39,284 nt of DNA, from positions 1 through 39,284 of the forward strand of contig JALHNY010000004.1 of assembly GCA_022843285.1 (NCBI GenBank). Reading direction: 5' to 3'. The notes beneath the pieces were generated by a model. It was not told the DNA's origin and searched no databases. It saw only the letters and a program-made list of their open reading frames with translations. The DNA is from Minisyncoccota bacterium. Its GTDB lineage: Bacteria; Patescibacteriota; Minisyncoccia; UBA6257; 2-01-FULL-56-20. The position numbers were made by a program, and so were the translations under genes. Positions 12,206-24,708 of this stretch are shown piece after piece. Within the stretch, counting starts at the first letter, position 1, and every line of letters begins with the position of its first letter.

Positions 12206-13903
12206 CTAGCGAATCTCGACCCCCACGTCACCCGCCTCCGCCGGGAGCTTGAACCGCCAGAACGGGCGGACGCTCACGGAGGCCTCTTTTACTGCAGATT
12301 GGTTCTTCAGCCACGTGGCCACGTCCCCCCGGCTCTTGCCCGCGGACTCAGCCCGGAGGCTCTCCTCGGTGATCTGGCCGACGATCACGGCCTTCGCGGT
12401 CACGGTGAAGGTCATGCGGCCGTCCGCGAACTGCGGCGCCACGTCGGCGTAACCAATCTCGATGCTGCGGAACGTCGTGGGGTAGCTGATGCCCGCTTGG
12501 GTGGCCGCCTGCTGCAGGAGCAGCTCCTTGAGGTCTTCCTCCCTGAACGCGAGCGCGGTGACGTTAGCCTGGCCCACCACGTTGAAGTTCCCCTGCTCGT
12601 CCACGTCCTTGTTCACGGTGAGCTGGGTGGGTTCCACGGTGACCGCGCCGTCGATGACGGTGAGGCCCGGCGCCTGTGCGATGACCTTCACGCGGTGGCT
12701 GGATGCGAGCATCTCGGTAATCTTGGTCCGCGCGCCCTCCTCGTCCGCGGAGGTCACCACGCGCTCGGACGGCGGGACGGAAGGCTCGGCGGCGGCTGAC
12801 TCCTCCTTGGGCTTCGAGAGCGTCGCGTAGAAGAGCGACTCCTTGTCCGTGCCGGCGAGCCCCGGAACGGTGAGGCGCTCCCCGTCGCTCGCACCACTGA
12901 GCACCGCGGCACTCTCCGGCGTCACCTCGACGGTCGCGGAGCCCGGGGTCAGCTTGTCGCCGTCCCTCTTCGCCGCGGGAATGGCCACGGCGCTCGCCGC
13001 GCGGAAGATGCCGCTCTTCCCCTGGAAACGCGTGCGCACGACGAACGTCTCGGCGCTGAGGCTCTCGTTGTACACCGTGACGCGCGGCTTGGAAGCAGCC
13101 GGCGCCTCCCCCGCACCGGGGGCTCCGGTGGCGGCGAAGGACTGGGCGATGCTCCGATTCTGCTCCGGGAAGAGCTGGCCGGGGATGGACATCGTGCCCA
13201 CCGTGGACGTCGTCACGGACGTCGCCGCCGTGACGGTCGCCGTGTACTCCCACGGCGTCTCGGCGAGCGTCACCGAGACGCTGCCGCCGCGGAAGAACCC
13301 CTCCCCCACGCCGACGACCAGAGCCACCGCGACGAGCGCGGTCACGGCGAGGCGCACCTTGGAGACGCGGCGCCCGCCCTTCCTGGGCTGGTCCTCCGTG
13401 AGCGCGGGGCGGGAGCCCGCGTCCCCGTGCTCACCCGCGGGCTCTCCGCTACCCTCGCGGGCTGCGGGCTTTGCCTCAACGGAGGGGCGCGACGAGACCG
13501 GGGTCGGGAGCGGGTGCTGGTGCATCTCGTACTGCTCCGGACTCACCTTCACCGGGGTGTCGTGGGCTCCCTTCTCCGCGTGCACGGGGACGCGCGGGTG
13601 CTGCACGTCATTTTTCACGATGCCATCCAGGGAGAGGTGGCGCCGGTCCGCGCGGAAGAACGGGTGCACGGTCTCCAGGTGCGCGGCGTGCGCCAGGGAG
13701 AGCAGCTCCTCGTCCACCGATTCGATGGCAACGGCAATACCGCGCTCCGCGGCAGCCTCGCCAATTTTCGCGAGGCCCTCGCGATCTGCGAGCGACGACC
13801 CGCGGGGCGCGACGACGGTCAGCGCGCTCTCGCGCGACGCTTCCAGTGCTTCCAGAACTCGGTCCGGACCGTCGTCGCGCGTGAGAATAAGTTTTTTCGC
13901 CAT
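12206..13903 (-). CDS. membrane-anchored baseplate-J-like protein
   Basis: About 565 aa from ATG 13901-13903. The N-terminus (about 1-80, KKLILTRDDGPDRVLEAL onward) looks like a small Rossmann-type domain. It is followed by a Pro-rich linker and one membrane helix near residues 180-200 (LAVTALVAVALVVGVGEGFF). The extracytoplasmic beta-rich part includes PRVTVYNESLSAETFVVRTRF and GIFRAASAVAIPA, reminiscent of proteins annotated as baseplate J/gp47-like in Patescibacteria. Function unknown; an envelope or cell-surface role is inferred from the operon. It lies 14 nt after the FtsA-like gene. In-frame sequence upstream of 13903 overlaps that gene and is not used. Confidence 0.65.
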   Translation of the reverse strand: MAKKLILTRDDGPDRVLEALEASRESALTVVAPRGSSLADREGLAKIGEAAAERGIAVAIESVDEELLSLAHAAHLETVHPFFRADRRHLSLDGIVKNDVQHPRVPVHAEKGAHDTPVKVSPEQYEMHQHPLPTPVSSRPSVEAKPAAREGSGEPAGEHGDAGSRPALTEDQPRKGGRRVSKVRLAVTALVAVALVVGVGEGFFRGGSVSVTLAETPWEYTATVTAATSVTTSTVGTMSIPGQLFPEQNRSIAQSFAATGAPGAGEAPAASKPRVTVYNESLSAETFVVRTRFQGKSGIFRAASAVAIPAAKRDGDKLTPGSATVEVTPESAAVLSGASDGERLTVPGLAGTDKESLFYATLSKPKEESAAAEPSVPPSERVVTSADEEGARTKITEMLASSHRVKVIAQAPGLTVIDGAVTVEPTQLTVNKDVDEQGNFNVVGQANVTALAFREEDLKELLLQQAATQAGISYPTTFRSIEIGYADVAPQFADGRMTFTVTAKAVIVGQITEESLRAESAGKSRGDVATWLKNQSAVKEASVSVRPFWRFKLPAEAGDVGVEIR

Positions 13904-13917
13904 GTGTGTTGGGTGTA

Positions 13918-15060
13918 CTAGATAGCCCCAGCAGTGCCCAGCCATGCGATGCGCTGGCGGAGCCACGCGTTGAGCTTGCTGTAGCGCTCACTATAGTAGA
14001 ATTCGGAAAACGCTGCCAGGACGAGCGCGTCGGCATCGGCGCTCTCGAGCGCCAGCCCGGTGGATCGGAGCGGCTCGTGCGGCTTCACGCGGACGAGCTC
14101 AATCGCCCCCCTGCCAGAGGACGGCGGGAGGTGCGCGTCGGTCACGGTGGCAATGGAGTCGCGCACCTTCAGGCTCGCGAGCTCTCGGTCCAGCGCGCGG
14201 CGCGGCTCCGCCACGACGCCCTCAATAGCCGCAGCCACCTCACCGTACGCAGCACCGGCTGCGTACCCCGCGAGGACGTCGTCGGCTGCCTCAGCCGATA
14301 GCGCCCAGCGCACCTCGAGCTCGCGCGTCACGTCAGCCGGAGACCACCCGAGCGGCATGCGCGTCACCTCGCGCATCGGGGCGCCCTCCGGCGGTGCCAC
14401 GATGAGCACGGACGGGCTCCCCTGGGCGACGAGCAGCTTGTCCGCCACCGGGTCGTGGCCGGCAACCAGCGCCCACGCCGGATCGGCGAAGAACGGCGCC
14501 GGCGCGGCTTCGCGCCCGCGCTCGAAGGTGTCCCGGGAGACGAAGCGCACGGTGACGTCGATGTCCACGCGCCCGCCCACGAGCTCGTGTGGGTTGAGCA
14601 CCTCGCTCCCCTCCACGCGCACGGAGTCCACGCGGAAGGACACGAGCACGGCATCGATGGGATCCACGCCGAGCTTCTCGGCGATGCGCGCGCGGTGCTC
14701 AGCCCAGAGCGTCACCTGCAGCTTCTTGAGCGCCTCCTGGAACTCTCCCGCGTGCACGCGCGTGTCCGGGCGCGGGCGCTCCAGCGTGATGCTCGTCGCG
14801 AGCGTCACCGCATCGAGGGGCGGCGTGGCGATGACCACGGGTGGCAGGTACGGCACCGCCGCGGGGTGCGGCGCGGCGAGGTCAGCCCACGGCACGCCGA
14901 ACACCTGGCTCGAGATGGCGACGTGGTGCGCGTCGCGCACGTGATCGATGAAGTACGCGTCCGCTGTGGCACCGCCCGGCACGAGCACGAGCGCGCGATC
15001 ACGCTTCCCCGCAGATCCGGGACGGGCGTGACGCGCGAGCGCGGCTAGCGTGCGGAGCAT
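13918..15060 (-). CDS. FtsA/PilM-like (actin-fold) protein, divergent
   Basis: 380 aa, soluble, Ala/Arg-rich. The middle has an SHS2-like stretch (DAVLVSFRVDSVRVEGSEV, then GGRVDIDVTVRFVSRD). Further on, TRMPLGWSPADVTRELEVRW followed by ALSAEAADDVLAGYA recalls the FtsA/PilM segment in which a Gly-rich phosphate loop is followed by a helix with E-x-A-E-x-x-K. Canonical ATP-binding motifs (DxG..) are not obvious, so ATP binding may be lost. It lies 4 nt after mraY and 14 nt before the membrane-anchored partner, suggesting a division or envelope-assembly role. Assignment is tentative. Confidence 0.45.
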   Translation of the reverse strand: MLRTLAALARHARPGSAGKRDRALVLVPGGATADAYFIDHVRDAHHVAISSQVFGVPWADLAAPHPAAVPYLPPVVIATPPLDAVTLATSITLERPRPDTRVHAGEFQEALKKLQVTLWAEHRARIAEKLGVDPIDAVLVSFRVDSVRVEGSEVLNPHELVGGRVDIDVTVRFVSRDTFERGREAAPAPFFADPAWALVAGHDPVADKLLVAQGSPSVLIVAPPEGAPMREVTRMPLGWSPADVTRELEVRWALSAEAADDVLAGYAAGAAYGEVAAAIEGVVAEPRRALDRELASLKVRDSIATVTDAHLPPSSGRGAIELVRVKPHEPLRSTGLALESADADALVLAAFSEFYYSERYSKLNAWLRQRIAWLGTAGAI

Positions 15061-15064
15061 GGAA

Positions 15065-16108
15065 TCAGAAGAAGCGCGCGAGGAAGTACAGCAGCAGGCC
15101 GAGCGCCGAAGCCATGGCCGCGATGATCCAGAAGCGCATCGTCACCTGGCTCTCGGGCCAGCCGAGCGCCTCGAAGTGGTGGTGAATCGGGGCAGAGCGG
15201 AACACCTTCCGCTTGAACACCTTCTTCGAGAAGACCTGGATGATGACGGACAGCGACTCTATCACGAGGATGGCCGCAAAGAACGGGAGGAAGAGCGCCG
15301 TGTTCGTGAGCATCGCGATGGTGCCGATGGTGATGCCGAGCGCCATGGACCCCGTGTCCCCCATGAAGAAACGCGCGGGGTGGATGTTGTACCAGAGGAA
15401 CGCGAGCAGCGCCCCGATGACCGCGCCGCCGAAGACGGCGAGGTCGTAGCGGCCGATCGCGAAGGCCACGGCGGTCAGCGCCAGGAACGCGAAGAGCGAG
15501 ACGCCGCCGAGCAGGCCATCCAGGCCGTCCGTCTCGTTGGCCGAGAACGCGGACGCGATGAGAATGAACATGAAGACCGGCACGTACCACACGCCAATCT
15601 CGAAGCTGCCGTAGAACGGCACCTGGATGACGTCGAACCCGAGGCGGACGTAGAACCACCACGCGCCGAGCGCCGCGAGCGCCGTGTATATGACGATCTT
15701 GTGCTTCACCGTCAGCCCCCCGCCCTTGGCGCCACCCTTCTTGCGCGCGTTGAACCAGTCATCGAGGAAGCCGAGCGTGCCCGCGAGCACGAGCGCCGCG
15801 AGCGGCAGGTACGTCTCGGCGCGGCTCACGAAGCTGAGGCGCTCGAAGAACCCGCCGAGCGCCGCGCCGAGCCCCCAGAGCACGAGCGCGATTGCCGTGA
15901 CCGTTCCCCAGATGATGAAGCCGCCGCCGTTGAGCGTGCCCGCCTTCTTCTGGTGCAGCTGCGAGAAGACCGGCGTCTCCTCCGTGGTGCGGATGCTCTT
16001 GCCGAAGCCCCAGCTCTCGAGCACGCGGAGCCAGATGGGCGTGACCACCAGCGCCCCGACGAACGCGAGGGCGGTGAGCGCAATGATTCTTATTCCTTCT
16101 TCAATCAC
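15065..16108 (-). CDS. mraY: phospho-N-acetylmuramoyl-pentapeptide transferase
   Basis: 347 aa, about ten membrane helices. MraY transfers phospho-MurNAc-pentapeptide from UDP to undecaprenyl phosphate, making lipid I. Catalytic and substrate motifs are present: LGFLDDW (Asp116-Asp117), NETDGLDGL (191-199), FFMGDTGS (Asp251) and the histidine loop APIHHHFE (306-313). The usual PTMGG near the N-terminus is replaced by GTLNGGGF. The ATG overlaps the carboxypeptidase stop by 4 nt, indicating coupled translation. Confidence 0.97.
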   Translation of the reverse strand: MIEEGIRIIALTALAFVGALVVTPIWLRVLESWGFGKSIRTTEETPVFSQLHQKKAGTLNGGGFIIWGTVTAIALVLWGLGAALGGFFERLSFVSRAETYLPLAALVLAGTLGFLDDWFNARKKGGAKGGGLTVKHKIVIYTALAALGAWWFYVRLGFDVIQVPFYGSFEIGVWYVPVFMFILIASAFSANETDGLDGLLGGVSLFAFLALTAVAFAIGRYDLAVFGGAVIGALLAFLWYNIHPARFFMGDTGSMALGITIGTIAMLTNTALFLPFFAAILVIESLSVIIQVFSKKVFKRKVFRSAPIHHHFEALGWPESQVTMRFWIIAAMASALGLLLYFLARFF

Positions 16109-17037
16109 TGGTTTGGTGTACTGAGTGTCGCGCGGAGCCCCCGCGTGTCAGCGAATCGCTGCTCACTGCCGAGTACCACGAACGCCACGTCACGCCCGCC
16201 GATTCGGAACAGCGAGAGCAGGTTTCCCCGCGCTTCGTCCGTGTACCCGGTCTTTCCTCCCAGAAATCCTGGGTCCCGGATGAGCTGGTGCGTTGCGTAC
16301 GCAGTATACGGCATCGTGCTGCTCGCCGCACTCACGCTCACGGATCCTCGCATCGTGGCGGCGAAGACCTCCGGGTGCGCCTGGCGGACTTTCGCGGCGA
16401 GCACCGCCACCTCGCGCGCCGTGCTCTGGTTTCCCGCCGAGAGTCCCGAGGGGTCCTGGAAGATCGTCTTGGTCAGCCCCCACTCCACCGCCCTCGCGTT
16501 CATCGCGGCGATGAACTCCTCGCGGCCGACGTGCGCGGCGAGGCTCTCAGCTGCCTCGTTGCTCGACGAGACGAGCATCACGTCGAGCACGTCGCGCATG
16601 GCGAACGTCGCGCCGACCGGAATGCCCGGAGAGGACGGGTTGCCGCCCGGCACGGGCACGATCACGACGGGGGCATCAACCGGGATGCGCTCGAGCGCGA
16701 CGCTCGCCGTCATGATTTTCGTGATGCTCGCGAGGGGCCAGCGCACCTGGCTCTCGCGGCTCGCCATGATCTCCCCCGTCGCGAGGTCCTCCACGACGTA
16801 CGCGCGCGCGAGAATCGGCGCGGGCTTCACCTCCGCCGGCGCAGAGGATGAGGCTGTAGTGGTCGCCGGCTCGAGCGGCGCGCCGTCCGGCTGCACCGGC
16901 GGGGACTGCACCTCCGGTGGCTGCTGCGCCCCGGGTTCTCCCCCGCTGCGCGACACCACGGTGACGGTGCCCGCCACCGCGACTGACGCGATGACCGCGG
17001 CGAACGCGCCAAAGAGCGCCGCCTGGCGGTGCGTCAT
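16105..17037 (-). CDS. D-alanyl-D-alanine carboxypeptidase (peptidase S11, PBP5/6-like)
   Basis: 310 aa. A signal-anchor helix (about 7-28) is followed by a Pro-rich linker to residue 75 and a serine D,D-peptidase domain. All three active-site motifs are intact: Ser104-x-x-Lys107 (ASITK), Ser158-Ser-Asn160 (SSSNEAA) and Lys262-Thr-Gly (GGKTGYT). It trims pentapeptide stems of peptidoglycan outside the membrane. It overlaps scpB by 4 nt upstream and mraY by 4 nt downstream. The C-terminal amphipathic anchor of PBP5 is missing, so the N-terminal helix is the only anchor. Confidence 0.93.
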   Translation of the reverse strand: MTHRQAALFGAFAAVIASVAVAGTVTVVSRSGGEPGAQQPPEVQSPPVQPDGAPLEPATTTASSSAPAEVKPAPILARAYVVEDLATGEIMASRESQVRWPLASITKIMTASVALERIPVDAPVVIVPVPGGNPSSPGIPVGATFAMRDVLDVMLVSSSNEAAESLAAHVGREEFIAAMNARAVEWGLTKTIFQDPSGLSAGNQSTAREVAVLAAKVRQAHPEVFAATMRGSVSVSAASSTMPYTAYATHQLIRDPGFLGGKTGYTDEARGNLLSLFRIGGRDVAFVVLGSEQRFADTRGLRATLSTPNQ

Positions 17038-17603
17038 TGCCCCTGCTTCTCCCCGGACGCGTCGCGCGCCGCGAGGCTGCGGGTCAGGAGGGCGCCGAGC
17101 TCGTCAAAGTCGGGCAGAGCCTCACGGTCCGTGATGCCCATGTCGCGCAGGAACTCGGCGGTGACCTGGTACCGGTGCTCACCCTTCCCCTCGCGCGTGC
17201 GCTCCACCATGCCGCGCACCATGAGCGTCCGCAGCGACACTGCGGAGCTGACGCCGCGCACGTGGTCAATCTTAGCTCGCGAGATGGGGCCGAAGTACGC
17301 GACGAGCGCGAGCGTCTCTAAGGAAGCGGGGCCGAGGTCCTGGGACAGCTCGCCACGCAGCAGCTCCGCAATCTGGTCCGCAAAGCGCGGGTGCGTGACG
17401 AGCTGCGCGGAGGCGCCGTGGCGCAGGAGGGCGAGCCCGCGGGACTCGTCCGCGTCGAGGCTGCTCTCGAGCGCGGCGAGCGCAGCTTCCACCTCCCCGA
17501 CGCTCGCGCCGGTGAGCGCGGCGAGCCGGTCGGAGACCAGGGGCTCCCCGTGGGCGAAGAGGATCGCCTCGATGGCGCCCTGGAGGTTACGTGGTGCTGC
17601 CAT
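17034..17603 (-). CDS. scpB: segregation and condensation protein B
   Basis: 189 aa with tandem winged-helix features. The family signature SLETLALVAYFGPISRAKIDHVRGVSS is present, followed by LRTLMVRGMVERT. ScpB dimerises and, with ScpA, regulates the SMC ATPase during chromosome compaction. The start overlaps scpA by 17 nt; the stop overlaps the carboxypeptidase start by 4 nt (ATGA). Confidence 0.93.
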   Translation of the reverse strand: MAAPRNLQGAIEAILFAHGEPLVSDRLAALTGASVGEVEAALAALESSLDADESRGLALLRHGASAQLVTHPRFADQIAELLRGELSQDLGPASLETLALVAYFGPISRAKIDHVRGVSSAVSLRTLMVRGMVERTREGKGEHRYQVTAEFLRDMGITDREALPDFDELGALLTRSLAARDASGEKQGQ

Positions 17604-18333
17604 GTTCCAGGACTATATCCGAGAAGGGTTCCTCCTGCACGAGCGAGACGCGCTGGTCTCGCGCCAGGTGCAGGGCCGCCAGGAACATCACGATGGAGTC
17701 CGCGCGCGAGATGCCGCTCGTGAGCTCGGAGAACTTTGCCGACCCGGCGGAGGCGAGGCGGTGCACGACGTCCGAGATGGCCTTCTGCAGCGAGATGACT
17801 TTGTGCCTCACCTCGGCCACCTCCTTCGCGACGAGCGTCGCCAGCTGCAGCACGCGGGAGGCAGCCTCGTGGAGCGCGCCGACCTCGAGGCCCGGCGGCG
17901 GCGCGAACACCGCGCGGTCCGTGCCGGCGCGCACGCCCTTGAGGTACGGGCGGCTCACGAGGGGCTGTCGCTTCAGGTACGCGCGGCGAAACGCCAGGAG
18001 CGCGGGCTTCACGGCCTGGTACGTGCGCAGCTGCTCGGCGAGGAGCTCAGGGTCCTCGACGTCGACGGTTGCCTCCTCGTCACTCGGCAGGAGGGCGCGC
18101 GACTTGAGCAGCAGGAGGCGCGTGGCGACCGACAGGAAGTCGGCGATGGTCTGCACGAGTGAGACCGGGCGCGGCTCCGGCACGCGCGTGAGCTCCCCCA
18201 CGTACCGCATGAAGTCTCCGGTGACCGCGGTGAGGTTAACTTCGTTGAGCTCCAGCTTCTTGCGCTCCACGAGCTCGAGGAGCGCGTCGAGCGGACCCGA
18301 GAAACCGGCGAGCTCTACCTCGTACCTCTTCAC
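17587..18333 (-). CDS. scpA: segregation and condensation protein A (kleisin)
   Basis: About 248 aa. The kleisin N-terminus reads VELAGFSGPLDALLELVERKKLEL, followed by VNLTAVTGDFMRYV, and the C-terminal winged helix includes SADSIVMFLAALHL-like sequence (SRADSIVMFLAALHLA). ScpA bridges the heads of SMC. GTG 18331-18333 is preferred over the GTG at 18348 because it overlaps the upstream stop as GTGA, giving the start MKRYEVELAGF typical of the family. Confidence 0.93.
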   Translation of the reverse strand: MKRYEVELAGFSGPLDALLELVERKKLELNEVNLTAVTGDFMRYVGELTRVPEPRPVSLVQTIADFLSVATRLLLLKSRALLPSDEEATVDVEDPELLAEQLRTYQAVKPALLAFRRAYLKRQPLVSRPYLKGVRAGTDRAVFAPPPGLEVGALHEAASRVLQLATLVAKEVAEVRHKVISLQKAISDVVHRLASAGSAKFSELTSGISRADSIVMFLAALHLARDQRVSLVQEEPFSDIVLEHGSTT

Positions 18334-19718
18334 GGGACCTGCAGCCACTGCGCAGCCGCGGCGAGGGACGCCTCGGGGTCAGAGGCGCCGGCAATGGAGA
18401 TGGCAACCTGGCGCTTGCCGCCCGCGGTCTCGATGGTCACGACCGCAACGGCGGGGAGGCCGCTCCCCTTCGCGGGTGCCGCGCCGCCGACGAAGCCCGG
18501 GAGCGCGAGGAGGTTCTCGCTGTGCTTGAGGTCACCCCAAATCGGCGGGTCGTACGCCAGGTTGCCGCGGCTGTTGCGCGAGAGGTCCAGGACGAAGACG
18601 CGGTTCTCCGCGAGGTAGCGCGCCAGGAGCGCGACGTCCGCGGGCGTCGTGCGGTTCTCCGGGCTCGAGGCGTCCACGTTCACGATCTTCGTGTTCGCCA
18701 TCCCGATCGAGCGCGCCTTCGCGTTCATGTACCGCACGAACGTCTCCTCTCCCCGGAACGAGGCGATGGTGCGCGCCGCCTCGACGTCTCCCTCGGACAG
18801 GAGCAGGCGCAGGAGGTCCAGCACGCTCACGCGCGAGATGGGCGCGAGGCGCGCGGACCCTTCCGCCGGCCCCACGGACAGGTTGCTCTCCACGTTCACG
18901 TAATCCACGGCGGTGAGGGCGGTGAGCATGTTCAGGGCCGGGCCGAACGACGTCTCCGCGTCCGCGTTCCTCGAGCGGACGTGCGTGCCGCTCGTCACGT
19001 CCGCGATGACGAAGTCTCCCTCGAGCAGCGGGTCTCCCGCGAAGTCGGGCAGCGGCTCCACCTCGACTGGCTCCTTGTACACGAGGACCGGCATGCCCAC
19101 CTCAGCCGCATCGTACACCTGCTTGGCGTACTGGTCCTCCATGCGGATGCAGCCCCCGGAGTACGACGTGGAGACCGGCGTGCCGTCCGGGTAGTACGGC
19201 CAGCCGTGGATGAAGTAGTTACCCTGGAACACGAGGCTCCACGGCTGGTACACGTGGCCGAAGGACGAGAAGTGGTTCTCCTTCTTGAGCGAGACGCTGT
19301 ACACCCCGACCGGCGTCTCCCACCAGGAGCCCACCTTTCCCTTTCCCTTGATGGGGAGGTCGAGCGCCACCTCGCCGCCGCGGTACACCTTGATGTTCAT
19401 GTCCGTCAGGTTCGCCTCGATGAAGTCCTTCTTCTCGGCAACCAGGCGATCCCGCGTGTACAGCACGTGCGACGCGGAGACGGCCGTGGTGGACGAGCTC
19501 ACCGCAGACTCCGTGATCTTGGGGTCGGGGCGCAGGATGGGCGCGTCGTCTTTGCGCTCCGCCACGGCCTCTCCCGCCACGAGGTCCGTCCACGTGTCGC
19601 GCAGCGCGCTCGCCCAGTTCGGCCAGAGCGCCGTGGCGAGCAGCGTCAGCCCCCCGATGACCAAGATGGCGAGCCCAAGGTAGATTGGGAGAGACGGGGA
19701 GGTGAGGAGTCGCTTCAC
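18330..19718 (-). CDS. L,D-transpeptidase (YkuD) fused to a catalytically dead D,D-carboxypeptidase-like domain
   Basis: About 462 aa from GTG 19718. A membrane anchor (about 8-32) is followed by a YkuD domain with the intact HG...SxGCxRM motif (His171 in FIHGWPYY, Cys190 in SYSGGCIRM). YkuD enzymes make 3-3 peptidoglycan cross-links. From about residue 235 the protein aligns with the S11 carboxypeptidase encoded three genes downstream (MNAKARSIGMANT, VLDLLRLLL, GFVGG). All three active-site motifs are lost: SITK becomes P-A-L-N (260-263), SSN becomes GDV (310-312), KTG becomes AAP (413-415). The domain probably binds peptide stems rather than cleaving them. First gene of the envelope operon. 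Longer in-frame starts up to 19784 cannot be excluded. Confidence 0.85.
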   Translation of the reverse strand: MKRLLTSPSLPIYLGLAILVIGGLTLLATALWPNWASALRDTWTDLVAGEAVAERKDDAPILRPDPKITESAVSSSTTAVSASHVLYTRDRLVAEKKDFIEANLTDMNIKVYRGGEVALDLPIKGKGKVGSWWETPVGVYSVSLKKENHFSSFGHVYQPWSLVFQGNYFIHGWPYYPDGTPVSTSYSGGCIRMEDQYAKQVYDAAEVGMPVLVYKEPVEVEPLPDFAGDPLLEGDFVIADVTSGTHVRSRNADAETSFGPALNMLTALTAVDYVNVESNLSVGPAEGSARLAPISRVSVLDLLRLLLSEGDVEAARTIASFRGEETFVRYMNAKARSIGMANTKIVNVDASSPENRTTPADVALLARYLAENRVFVLDLSRNSRGNLAYDPPIWGDLKHSENLLALPGFVGGAAPAKGSGLPAVAVVTIETAGGKRQVAISIAGASDPEASLAAAAQWLQVP

Positions 19719-19769: not shown

Positions 19770-19798
19770 TTGACGCGCGTCCAAAAACTACGTACAAG
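19770..19798 (+). promoter_or_regulatory. promoter of the 106-aa hypothetical gene
   Basis: TTGACG (19770-19775) and TACAAG (19793-19798) are 17 bp apart. The expected transcript has a leader of about 40 nt containing GGAGGTGG just before the ATG, so this is a conventional leadered gene. Confidence 0.55.
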
Positions 19799-20204: not shown

Positions 20205-20241
20205 ATTGGCGAATCCCCCGCCTGGCTCCATAATGCGGCTG

Positions 20242-21351
20242 ATGGCATCCCTGTACCGCACGCACCGCCCGAAGACGCTCGCCAACCTCATCGGGCAGGA
20301 CCAGGTCGCCGCGACGCTCCGCAACGCCGCCGCCTCCGGCCGCATAGGGCACGCGTACCTCTTCTCCGGCCCCCGCGGCACGGGCAAGACCACCACAGCC
20401 CGCATCCTCGCCAAGCTCCTCGTCTGCAGGAAGCGCGAGGAGGACGCGAAGTTCGCCGCGGAGGGTGAGGCCTGCAACGACTGCGACCGCTGCGTCGCCG
20501 TGGATTCCGGCGCACTGCTCGACGTCGTCGAGATTGACGCGGCGAGCAACCGAGGCATCGACGAGATCCGCGAGCTGCGCGAGCGCATCCGCGCGGTGCC
20601 CACGCAGGGGCCGAAGAAGGTGTACATCATCGACGAGGCGCACATGCTCACGACCCCGGCGTGGAACGCGCTCCTCAAGACGCTCGAGGAGCCGCCCGCG
20701 CACGGCGTGATCATCCTGGCCACCACCGATGCCGAGAAGCTCCCCGCGACCATAACCTCGCGCACGCAGCGCTTCTCGTTCCGCCGCCCGGGCAAGGCTG
20801 ACCTGGTCGCGAAGCTCGCGGGCATCGCAGAGGCTGAGGGCATCCAGATTGACGAGGACGCCCTCGAGCTCGTTGCGGCAGCCTCGGGCGGGAGCTTCCG
20901 CGACGCGGAGTCCCTCCTCGAGCAGGCGCGCGGCGCCGGGGCGACAATCACGGTCACGCACCTCGAGCAGCTCTTCGGGCGCGTCAGCTCCACGCGCGTG
21001 CACGCGCTCGCCGATGCCATTGCAAAAAACGACGCGGGTGCGGCGCTCACCATCCTCAACGAGAGCGAGGTGGCGGGCGCGAGCATCTCGGACCTCGCCA
21101 AGCAGCTCGTCCACTACCTCCGCCGCGCGACCGCCATCACGGCGGACGCGTCCGTTGCCGAGCTGTACCGCGACGCCCTCACCGCTGACGAGCTCGAGAC
21201 GCTGAAGGGCTTCTCCTCTTCCCTGACCCCGGAGCGCGGCATCTACCTGACGCGCACGTTCCTGGAGGCGTACCGCGAGCTGCGCACCTCTCCCCTCGAG
21301 TCCGTGCCGCTCGAAATTGCGATTGTGGAGGCGACGCGCGAACTGAAATGA
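20242..21351 (+). CDS. dnaX: DNA polymerase III subunit gamma/tau, short form
   Basis: 369 aa. The AAA+ clamp-loader ATPase begins SLYRTHRPKTLANLIGQDQV. Walker A is GPRGTGKTT (43-51), Walker B YIIDEAHML, and a zinc module has Cys62, Cys78, Cys81 and Cys84. Sensor-1 and the arginine-finger loop read TTDAEKLPATITSRTQRF; SRT replaces the usual SRC. Only the ATPase and part of the collar domain are present, so this is a gamma-like protein without the tau extension that binds DnaB and polymerase. ATG 20242 is chosen because CATAAT (20229-20234) ends 7 nt upstream. Confidence 0.95.
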   Translation: MASLYRTHRPKTLANLIGQDQVAATLRNAAASGRIGHAYLFSGPRGTGKTTTARILAKLLVCRKREEDAKFAAEGEACNDCDRCVAVDSGALLDVVEIDAASNRGIDEIRELRERIRAVPTQGPKKVYIIDEAHMLTTPAWNALLKTLEEPPAHGVIILATTDAEKLPATITSRTQRFSFRRPGKADLVAKLAGIAEAEGIQIDEDALELVAAASGGSFRDAESLLEQARGAGATITVTHLEQLFGRVSSTRVHALADAIAKNDAGAALTILNESEVAGASISDLAKQLVHYLRRATAITADASVAELYRDALTADELETLKGFSSSLTPERGIYLTRTFLEAYRELRTSPLESVPLEIAIVEATRELK

Positions 21352-24195: not shown

Positions 24196-24573
24196 CTAGT
24201 AGCGGTTGCCGTAGTTCGGGCGTGATGCACGCTGCTTGGCGTGGCAGTCGCGGCAGAGAATCGGGCGATCGCCGCTCGGCATGAACGGGAGCTCCTTGAT
24301 CTCAGCGCCGCACTCGCCGCAGGACCAGTCACCCTGCACCATCTGGCGCGGGCCACGGTCACCGCCGAAGCTGCCACGGTCGCGCTGCGGGCGGTTCTGC
24401 ATGTGGCAGTCGCGGCACAGCACGCTGTCCGGATCGCGCGGCTGGAACGGGAGCTCAGTGATCTCCTTTCCGCAGCCCTTGCACGTCCAGTTGCCCTGTA
24501 CCATCTGGCGCGGGCCACGGTCACCGCCGCCGAAAGAACGGCGCGGACCGTTGTTGAAATCTCCGTAAGACAT
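24196..24573 (-). CDS. tandem CxxC-x17-CxxC-type zinc-ribbon protein
   Basis: 125 aa from ATG 24571-24573; in-frame starts up to 24660 exist, but that stretch is A/T-richer and looks like a leader. Two copies of one module, each with RGPRQMVQG, W-x-C-x2-C-G, EI-x-ELPF-x-P and LCRDCH, place two Cys pairs about 18 residues apart. This is the CxxC-x17-CxxC zinc-ribbon pattern common in Patescibacteria. The linkers are Arg/Gly-rich (GPRRSFGGGDRGP), suggesting nucleic-acid binding. The modules are near-identical at DNA level over RGPRQMVQG, so the duplication is recent or kept uniform. Confidence 0.8.
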   Translation of the reverse strand: MSYGDFNNGPRRSFGGGDRGPRQMVQGNWTCKGCGKEITELPFQPRDPDSVLCRDCHMQNRPQRDRGSFGGDRGPRQMVQGDWSCGECGAEIKELPFMPSGDRPILCRDCHAKQRASRPNYGNRY

Positions 24574-24708
24574 GGAGTGTTGCTTGTACGTTTTCTGAAC
24601 GACCTTGTTGTTTGTTTCCGAATTCAGGTCGCCCATGGGAACGGGATGAACCCGATCCACTACGTACTTGAACCGTGCCCAAATTGTGGCACAGACCAGG
24701 GAGGGTGT

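Follow-up and report, generated by a model that had tools for sequence, protein, structure and literature searches.

L,D-transpeptidases (LDTs) need tetrapeptide stems that come from a separate D,D-carboxypeptidase. In E. coli, the LDT YcbB takes tetrapeptide, not pentapeptide, donors and requires the D,D-carboxypeptidase PBP5 (PMC5089857). Here, we describe a gene within a 39,284-nt stretch of DNA from a Minisyncoccota bacterium (the window) that encodes both domain types in one chain, a YkuD LDT followed by a peptidase S11 domain without its catalytic motifs. Each domain is well known; the fusion and its pseudo-forms are without a description that we could find in the open-access literature, where we looked for YkuD-S11 fusions, their pseudo-forms, Patescibacteria LDTs and dead S11 enzymes. 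Likewise, no NCBIfam model covers both fusion domains above its cut-off. An earlier reading of the letters, made without database searches (the sequence-only reading), had also found the architecture unfamiliar, in agreement with this literature search.

The fusion gene occupies 18330..19718 on the reverse strand and encodes 462 aa from a GTG at 19718, with the frame open upstream to a TTG at 19784; the features given next lie on the same strand. The protein starts with a predicted membrane-anchor helix (residues 12-48; 19575..19685), assigned from AlphaFold2 secondary structure and its hydrophobic sequence, followed by the YkuD domain (residues 98-213; 19080..19427), which matches Pfam PF03734 at 1.1e-15 with 58.9 bits against a cut-off of 23.4. 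Alignment with relatives shows that it keeps the family-invariant His171 (19206..19208) and the nucleophile Cys190 (19149..19151), the latter within S-G-G-C-I-R. The LDT is therefore active-looking, and L,D-transpeptidase activity on tetrapeptide is predicted. The C-terminal half (residues 225-462; 18333..19046) matches Peptidase_S11 (PF00768) at 5e-9 with 36.4 bits against a cut-off of 27.6, and alignment with intact relatives shows that SxxK, SxN and KTG/KxG are all absent, their sites now reading P260-A-L-N263 (18930..18941), G310-D-V312 (18783..18791) and A413-A-P415 (18474..18482). Of the conserved S11 positions, this half keeps none of the six catalytic ones but 28 of the 50 others (Fisher p 0.012). 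The sequence-only reading had seen the same arrangement, with the YkuD His and Cys intact and P-A-L-N, G-D-V and A-A-P in place of the three S11 motifs, and the alignments bear it out.

We consider it hardly credible that the C-terminal half is unrelated to S11 or that an assembly error or artificial frameshift makes its motifs look lost. Taken on its own, the S11 sequence match is modest (36 bits), but it passes the Pfam cut-off, the alignment to intact fusions is continuous, the predicted fold matches an S11 enzyme at Z 27.9, codon-position GC is uniform and dead relatives occur in independent assemblies. A frameshift or chance frame is ruled out, since each lost motif is flanked by homologous sequence and the two halves hardly differ in third-position GC (S11, 0.95; LDT, 0.96).

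The AlphaFold2 model of the fusion has a mean pLDDT of 87, with the S11 half mostly above 90; its input alignment consists mostly of intact relatives, so the prediction is biased toward the shared S11 fold. In structure comparison, modelled residues 225-462 match the B. subtilis carboxypeptidase 3mfd with Z 27.9 (2.2 A over 224 residues), E. coli PBP6 with Z 27.8 and PBP5 with Z 26.8-27.0, and an intact relative used as control (L008) matches 3mfd with Z 31.8. In the model, the C-terminal half is thus an S11 fold whose catalytic residues are lost, and superposition on PBP5, which the sequence-only reading had proposed as a check, comes out in favor of that reading.

Downstream of the fusion gene and on the same strand lie scpA (17587..18348), which starts within the 3' end of the fusion gene; scpB (17034..17603), overlapping scpA; a dacA-like gene (16105..17037), overlapping scpB; and a glycosyltransferase family 4 gene (GT4, MraY/WecA-like; 15065..16108), which overlaps dacA and ends the conserved block. 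Since every downstream gene overlaps its predecessor, the block from the fusion to GT4 is probably co-transcribed. The dacA-like product is a stand-alone S11 D,D-carboxypeptidase with SITK, SSN and KTG intact, and is the intact enzyme that had been placed three genes downstream of the fusion. On the other side is the divergent dnaX (20206..21351, forward strand; Pfam and locus comparison), which adjoins the fusion in relatives too. Beyond the MraY-like gene, the window carries an overlapping pair of reverse-strand genes (12206-13966 and 13918-15060) with no significant Pfam match, the second of which has a relative after GT4 in genome G019. A small reverse-strand gene elsewhere in the window (24196-24660) encodes two CxxC...CxxC zinc-ribbon-like repeats (CxxCGKEITELPF, CGECGAEIKELPF).

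The genome of the window has two YkuD genes, both of them LDT-S11 fusions; dacA is its one intact S11 gene, and it has two penicillin-binding transpeptidases as well. Its second fusion, on contig C8 (L039:7981-9324, forward strand), is S11-dead too, with AFGQ, SSD and KVS at the three motifs, and both copies are inactivated derivatives. Upstream of the C8 fusion are a DsbB-like gene, thioredoxin-fold DsbA-like genes and a gene for a small His/Met-rich protein.

Surveying the fusion across genomes, we found proteins spanning both domains in 54 of 244 genomes of the window's order and in 37 of 384 genomes sampled in its class. In the phylum sample (n=380), no full fusion was found outside this class, and there only S11-domain matches passed the threshold. 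In a GTDB-wide genome collection, the window protein alone matched no contig as query and an alignment query yielded the loci; the best 80 belong to MAGs titled Parcubacteria or other Patescibacteria groups, or to untitled bacteria, and include two same-family genomes titled Candidatus Liptonbacteria. The window fusion is 26-43% identical to its relatives across both domains, and the membrane helix, YkuD and S11 regions are alignable throughout. With 60% identity to the LDT of the window copy, G007:C51 seemed to be a close orthologue, but it was rejected as a near copy of the live fusion of G007, cut by a contig end. Some fusions are longer: L094, L098 and L103, at 759-796 aa, combine YkuD, S11 and PGA_cap (PF09587, capsule synthesis protein) in one chain, and L106, L107, L108 and L111 are of similar length.

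Both active sites (S-x-x-K, S-x-N, K-x-G, and the LDT His and Cys) are intact in 98 of 120 distinct fusions. The S11 nucleophile or base is gone in 15, KTG is changed in six (one of them at SxN as well) and the LDT Cys is lost in one, and L100 has altered surroundings of this Cys. The order dnaX, divergent fusion, scpA, scpB, dacA and GT4 is found with an intact fusion in G002, G004, G007, G019, G023, G030 and G113, the adjacent dnaX of G007 being on a second contig of the MAG and the contig of G030 starting at the fusion. Because several same-family genomes and G113 carry an intact fusion at this locus, the window fusion is a positional relative of the bifunctional ones, and its dead condition is derived. 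The sequence-only reading, which took the dead domain as the essence of the architecture, has to be revised here: with all motifs kept in so many fusions, relatives largely retain an active site, which that reading had itself named as an outcome against it, and the dead state arose later and more than once. The survey it called for shows the fusion to occur through the class and bears that reading out in part, in that the closest relatives of the window copy are also dead. Judging from their domains, intact fusions can plausibly make their own tetrapeptide substrate.

Loss of the S11 site has occurred repeatedly. Live/dead label changes number 4 on a 76-row tree, 4 (strict loss) or 7 (partial loss included) on a 120-row tree and 7 on a tree of the LDT half only. 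The window copy clusters with L252, L256 and L259 with a support of 88 in the full-length tree and 85 in the LDT-only tree; all of these are S11-dead, so loss of the window type extends past one genome. The C8 fusion clusters with L253, L245 and L251, all dead, with a full-length support of 100. We considered whether the 8 dead rows around the window all trace to one loss and did not accept it: they fall on one side of a branch in the full-length tree, but its support of 77 is not significant, and the LDT-only tree needs two changes. Elsewhere, four species of one genus (L070, L074, L075 and L076 in G130-G133) all have the S11 nucleophile Ser changed to Ala; their Lys and SSN are retained, and IGG stands in place of KTG.

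Once dead, the S11 half evolves fast. The ratio of S11 to LDT mean identity is 0.59 in dead fusions and 0.777 (sd 0.064) in live ones (Mann-Whitney p 1.5e-9 without correction for relatedness), and where it is the LDT that is degraded the relation is reversed, with ratios of 1.04 and 1.13. With a ratio of 0.50, the lowest of 120, change in the window fusion is concentrated in the dead half, whose end branch is 1.85-2.05. Such rapid evolution favors the main rival to the explanation we prefer below, namely that the S11 half could be done without as soon as DacA or a paralogue supplied its activity, and is now decaying, with no role other than leaving the LDT undisturbed. The fact that two independent paralogues in the window genome are both dead also points this way, as does the finding that the dead genomes checked have an intact S11 gene standing alone (in G053, in a split frame). 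Moreover, in L288 (G564) and L289 (G595) the LDT is followed by a shrunken S11 remnant with only the helical middle (MNxKAxxxGMxNTxF), showing that the whole domain is not needed there.

Other observations speak against simple decay. Eight S11-dead fusions, from two related clades, keep an open, full-length domain and, more broadly, the domain is full-length in 15 of 15 S11-dead fusions (ORFs of 443-563 aa), the exception in length being L139, with 433 aa and a gap at KTG. In the dead sister pair L252/L259, dN of 0.057 and dS of 0.44 in the S11 half indicate purifying selection. The S11 half of the Ser-to-Ala clade, also under purifying selection, has dN of 0.13-0.29, similar to its live sister clade, with dS saturated. 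For the window copy's own S11 half, the collections contain no relative near enough for dN/dS, most pairs being dS-saturated; here, the retention of about half of the structural positions and none of the six catalytic ones argues against decay. A subregion retained in common by all dead domains was sought and rejected as inconsistent, with the window copy best keeping the helical lobe and the C8 clade other parts. We thus regard a decaying relic as possible but doubtful.

If the dead domain is retained for a function, it might still bind pentapeptide or an uncross-linked stem and present it to the LDT, as the sequence-only reading suggested, with possible regulation of the neighboring DacA as its alternative. 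The fold is shared with substrate-binding S11 enzymes, and the Ser-to-Ala clade, which keeps Lys and SSN, could still bind stems. However, such a hand-over of pentapeptide would not help, because characterized LDTs such as YcbB do not use it (PMC5089857). The window domain has also lost all six residues that are invariant in active S11 relatives, including the cleft-lining Asn of SxN and Lys and Gly of KxG, and on these grounds hand-over is disfavored and, to us, highly improbable.

A different possibility arises from genomes with two complementary fusions. In G436, G589, G590, G591 and G592, an LDT-live/S11-dead fusion coexists with an LDT-dead/S11-live paralogue (L139/L102, L252/L294, L256/L275, L257/L271 and L259/L293), the LDT-dead partner having its Cys replaced and its S11 site live with SITK, SxN and KxG. 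No LDT-dead copy was seen in the surveyed fusion-bearing genomes with a live S11. Since G589, G590 and G592 are related, these pairs amount to about three independent cases of reciprocal loss. The dead domain could accordingly serve to bind DacA or the paralogue with the opposite defect in a two-chain complex that restores both activities. Each chain of the reciprocal pairs keeps its dead domain, and the window fusion shares one overlapping block with dacA, both of which fit such docking. The small number of independent cases speaks against it, however, as does the window genome, in which no LDT-dead fusion copy was seen, and we rate docking as quite unlikely. A broader scenario, in which the fused two-step enzyme was repeatedly duplicated and its activities split between paralogues, each with a dead docking module, so that the heteromer is the working unit and DacA fills the partner's part in the window, seems to us unlikely, if somewhat less so.

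The explanation we favor, with a confidence only a little above even, is that the window protein has retained its S11 half as a non-catalytic module and that DacA trims pentapeptides. The ancestor would have been a bifunctional membrane-anchored cell-wall enzyme, whose S11 half cleaved the terminal D-Ala off pentapeptide stems, giving tetrapeptide that its YkuD half then took as the acyl donor when forming an L,D-transpeptide bond. In the window lineage, the S11 half would have lost its nucleophile, base and both substrate-cleft motifs and kept its fold, and may now act non-catalytically as a spacer, an interaction surface or a support for the LDT domain. Pentapeptide trimming would be left to the intact DacA encoded in the same overlapping gene block. 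Stand-alone DacA is also present with intact fusions, so this division of labor is permitted and not demanded by the gene content; for the same reason, an association of dead fusions with the presence of DacA was rejected.

Known systems resemble the window protein in part. With class C PBPs and peptidase S11 (PBP5, PBP6 and 3mfd), its residues 225-462 share the predicted fold (Z 26.8-27.9) and PF00768; unlike them, this half is without SxxK, SxN and KTG and is C-terminal to an LDT. With YkuD LDTs such as E. coli YcbB/LdtD and M. tuberculosis LdtMt5, the protein shares the YkuD domain and the conserved His and Cys, and its LDT has a sequence match to LdtMt5 (4z7a/6d5a), but S-G-G-C replaces the common S-H-G-C and an S11 domain follows. 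In E. coli, the D,D-carboxypeptidase PBP5 feeds the LDT YcbB as a separate protein (PMC5089857), whereas intact fusions carry both domains, and presumably both activities, in one chain, and the window fusion has one of the two fused sites dead. The presence of both domains in one chain in more than 100 Paceibacteria proteins suggests how these reduced genomes may couple the two steps. A dead wall-enzyme-fold domain kept in a cell-wall protein is also described for DipM (PMC10336132), a protein that has an inactive domain of the LytM fold and regulates autolysins in trans, whereas the dead domain of the window protein sits on the LDT itself. Among the fusions, site loss that recurs, is sometimes reciprocal and leaves the dead domain in place amounts to a natural separation-of-function series, and its pairs of live and dead relatives make it directly testable whether dead wall-enzyme domains have a job.
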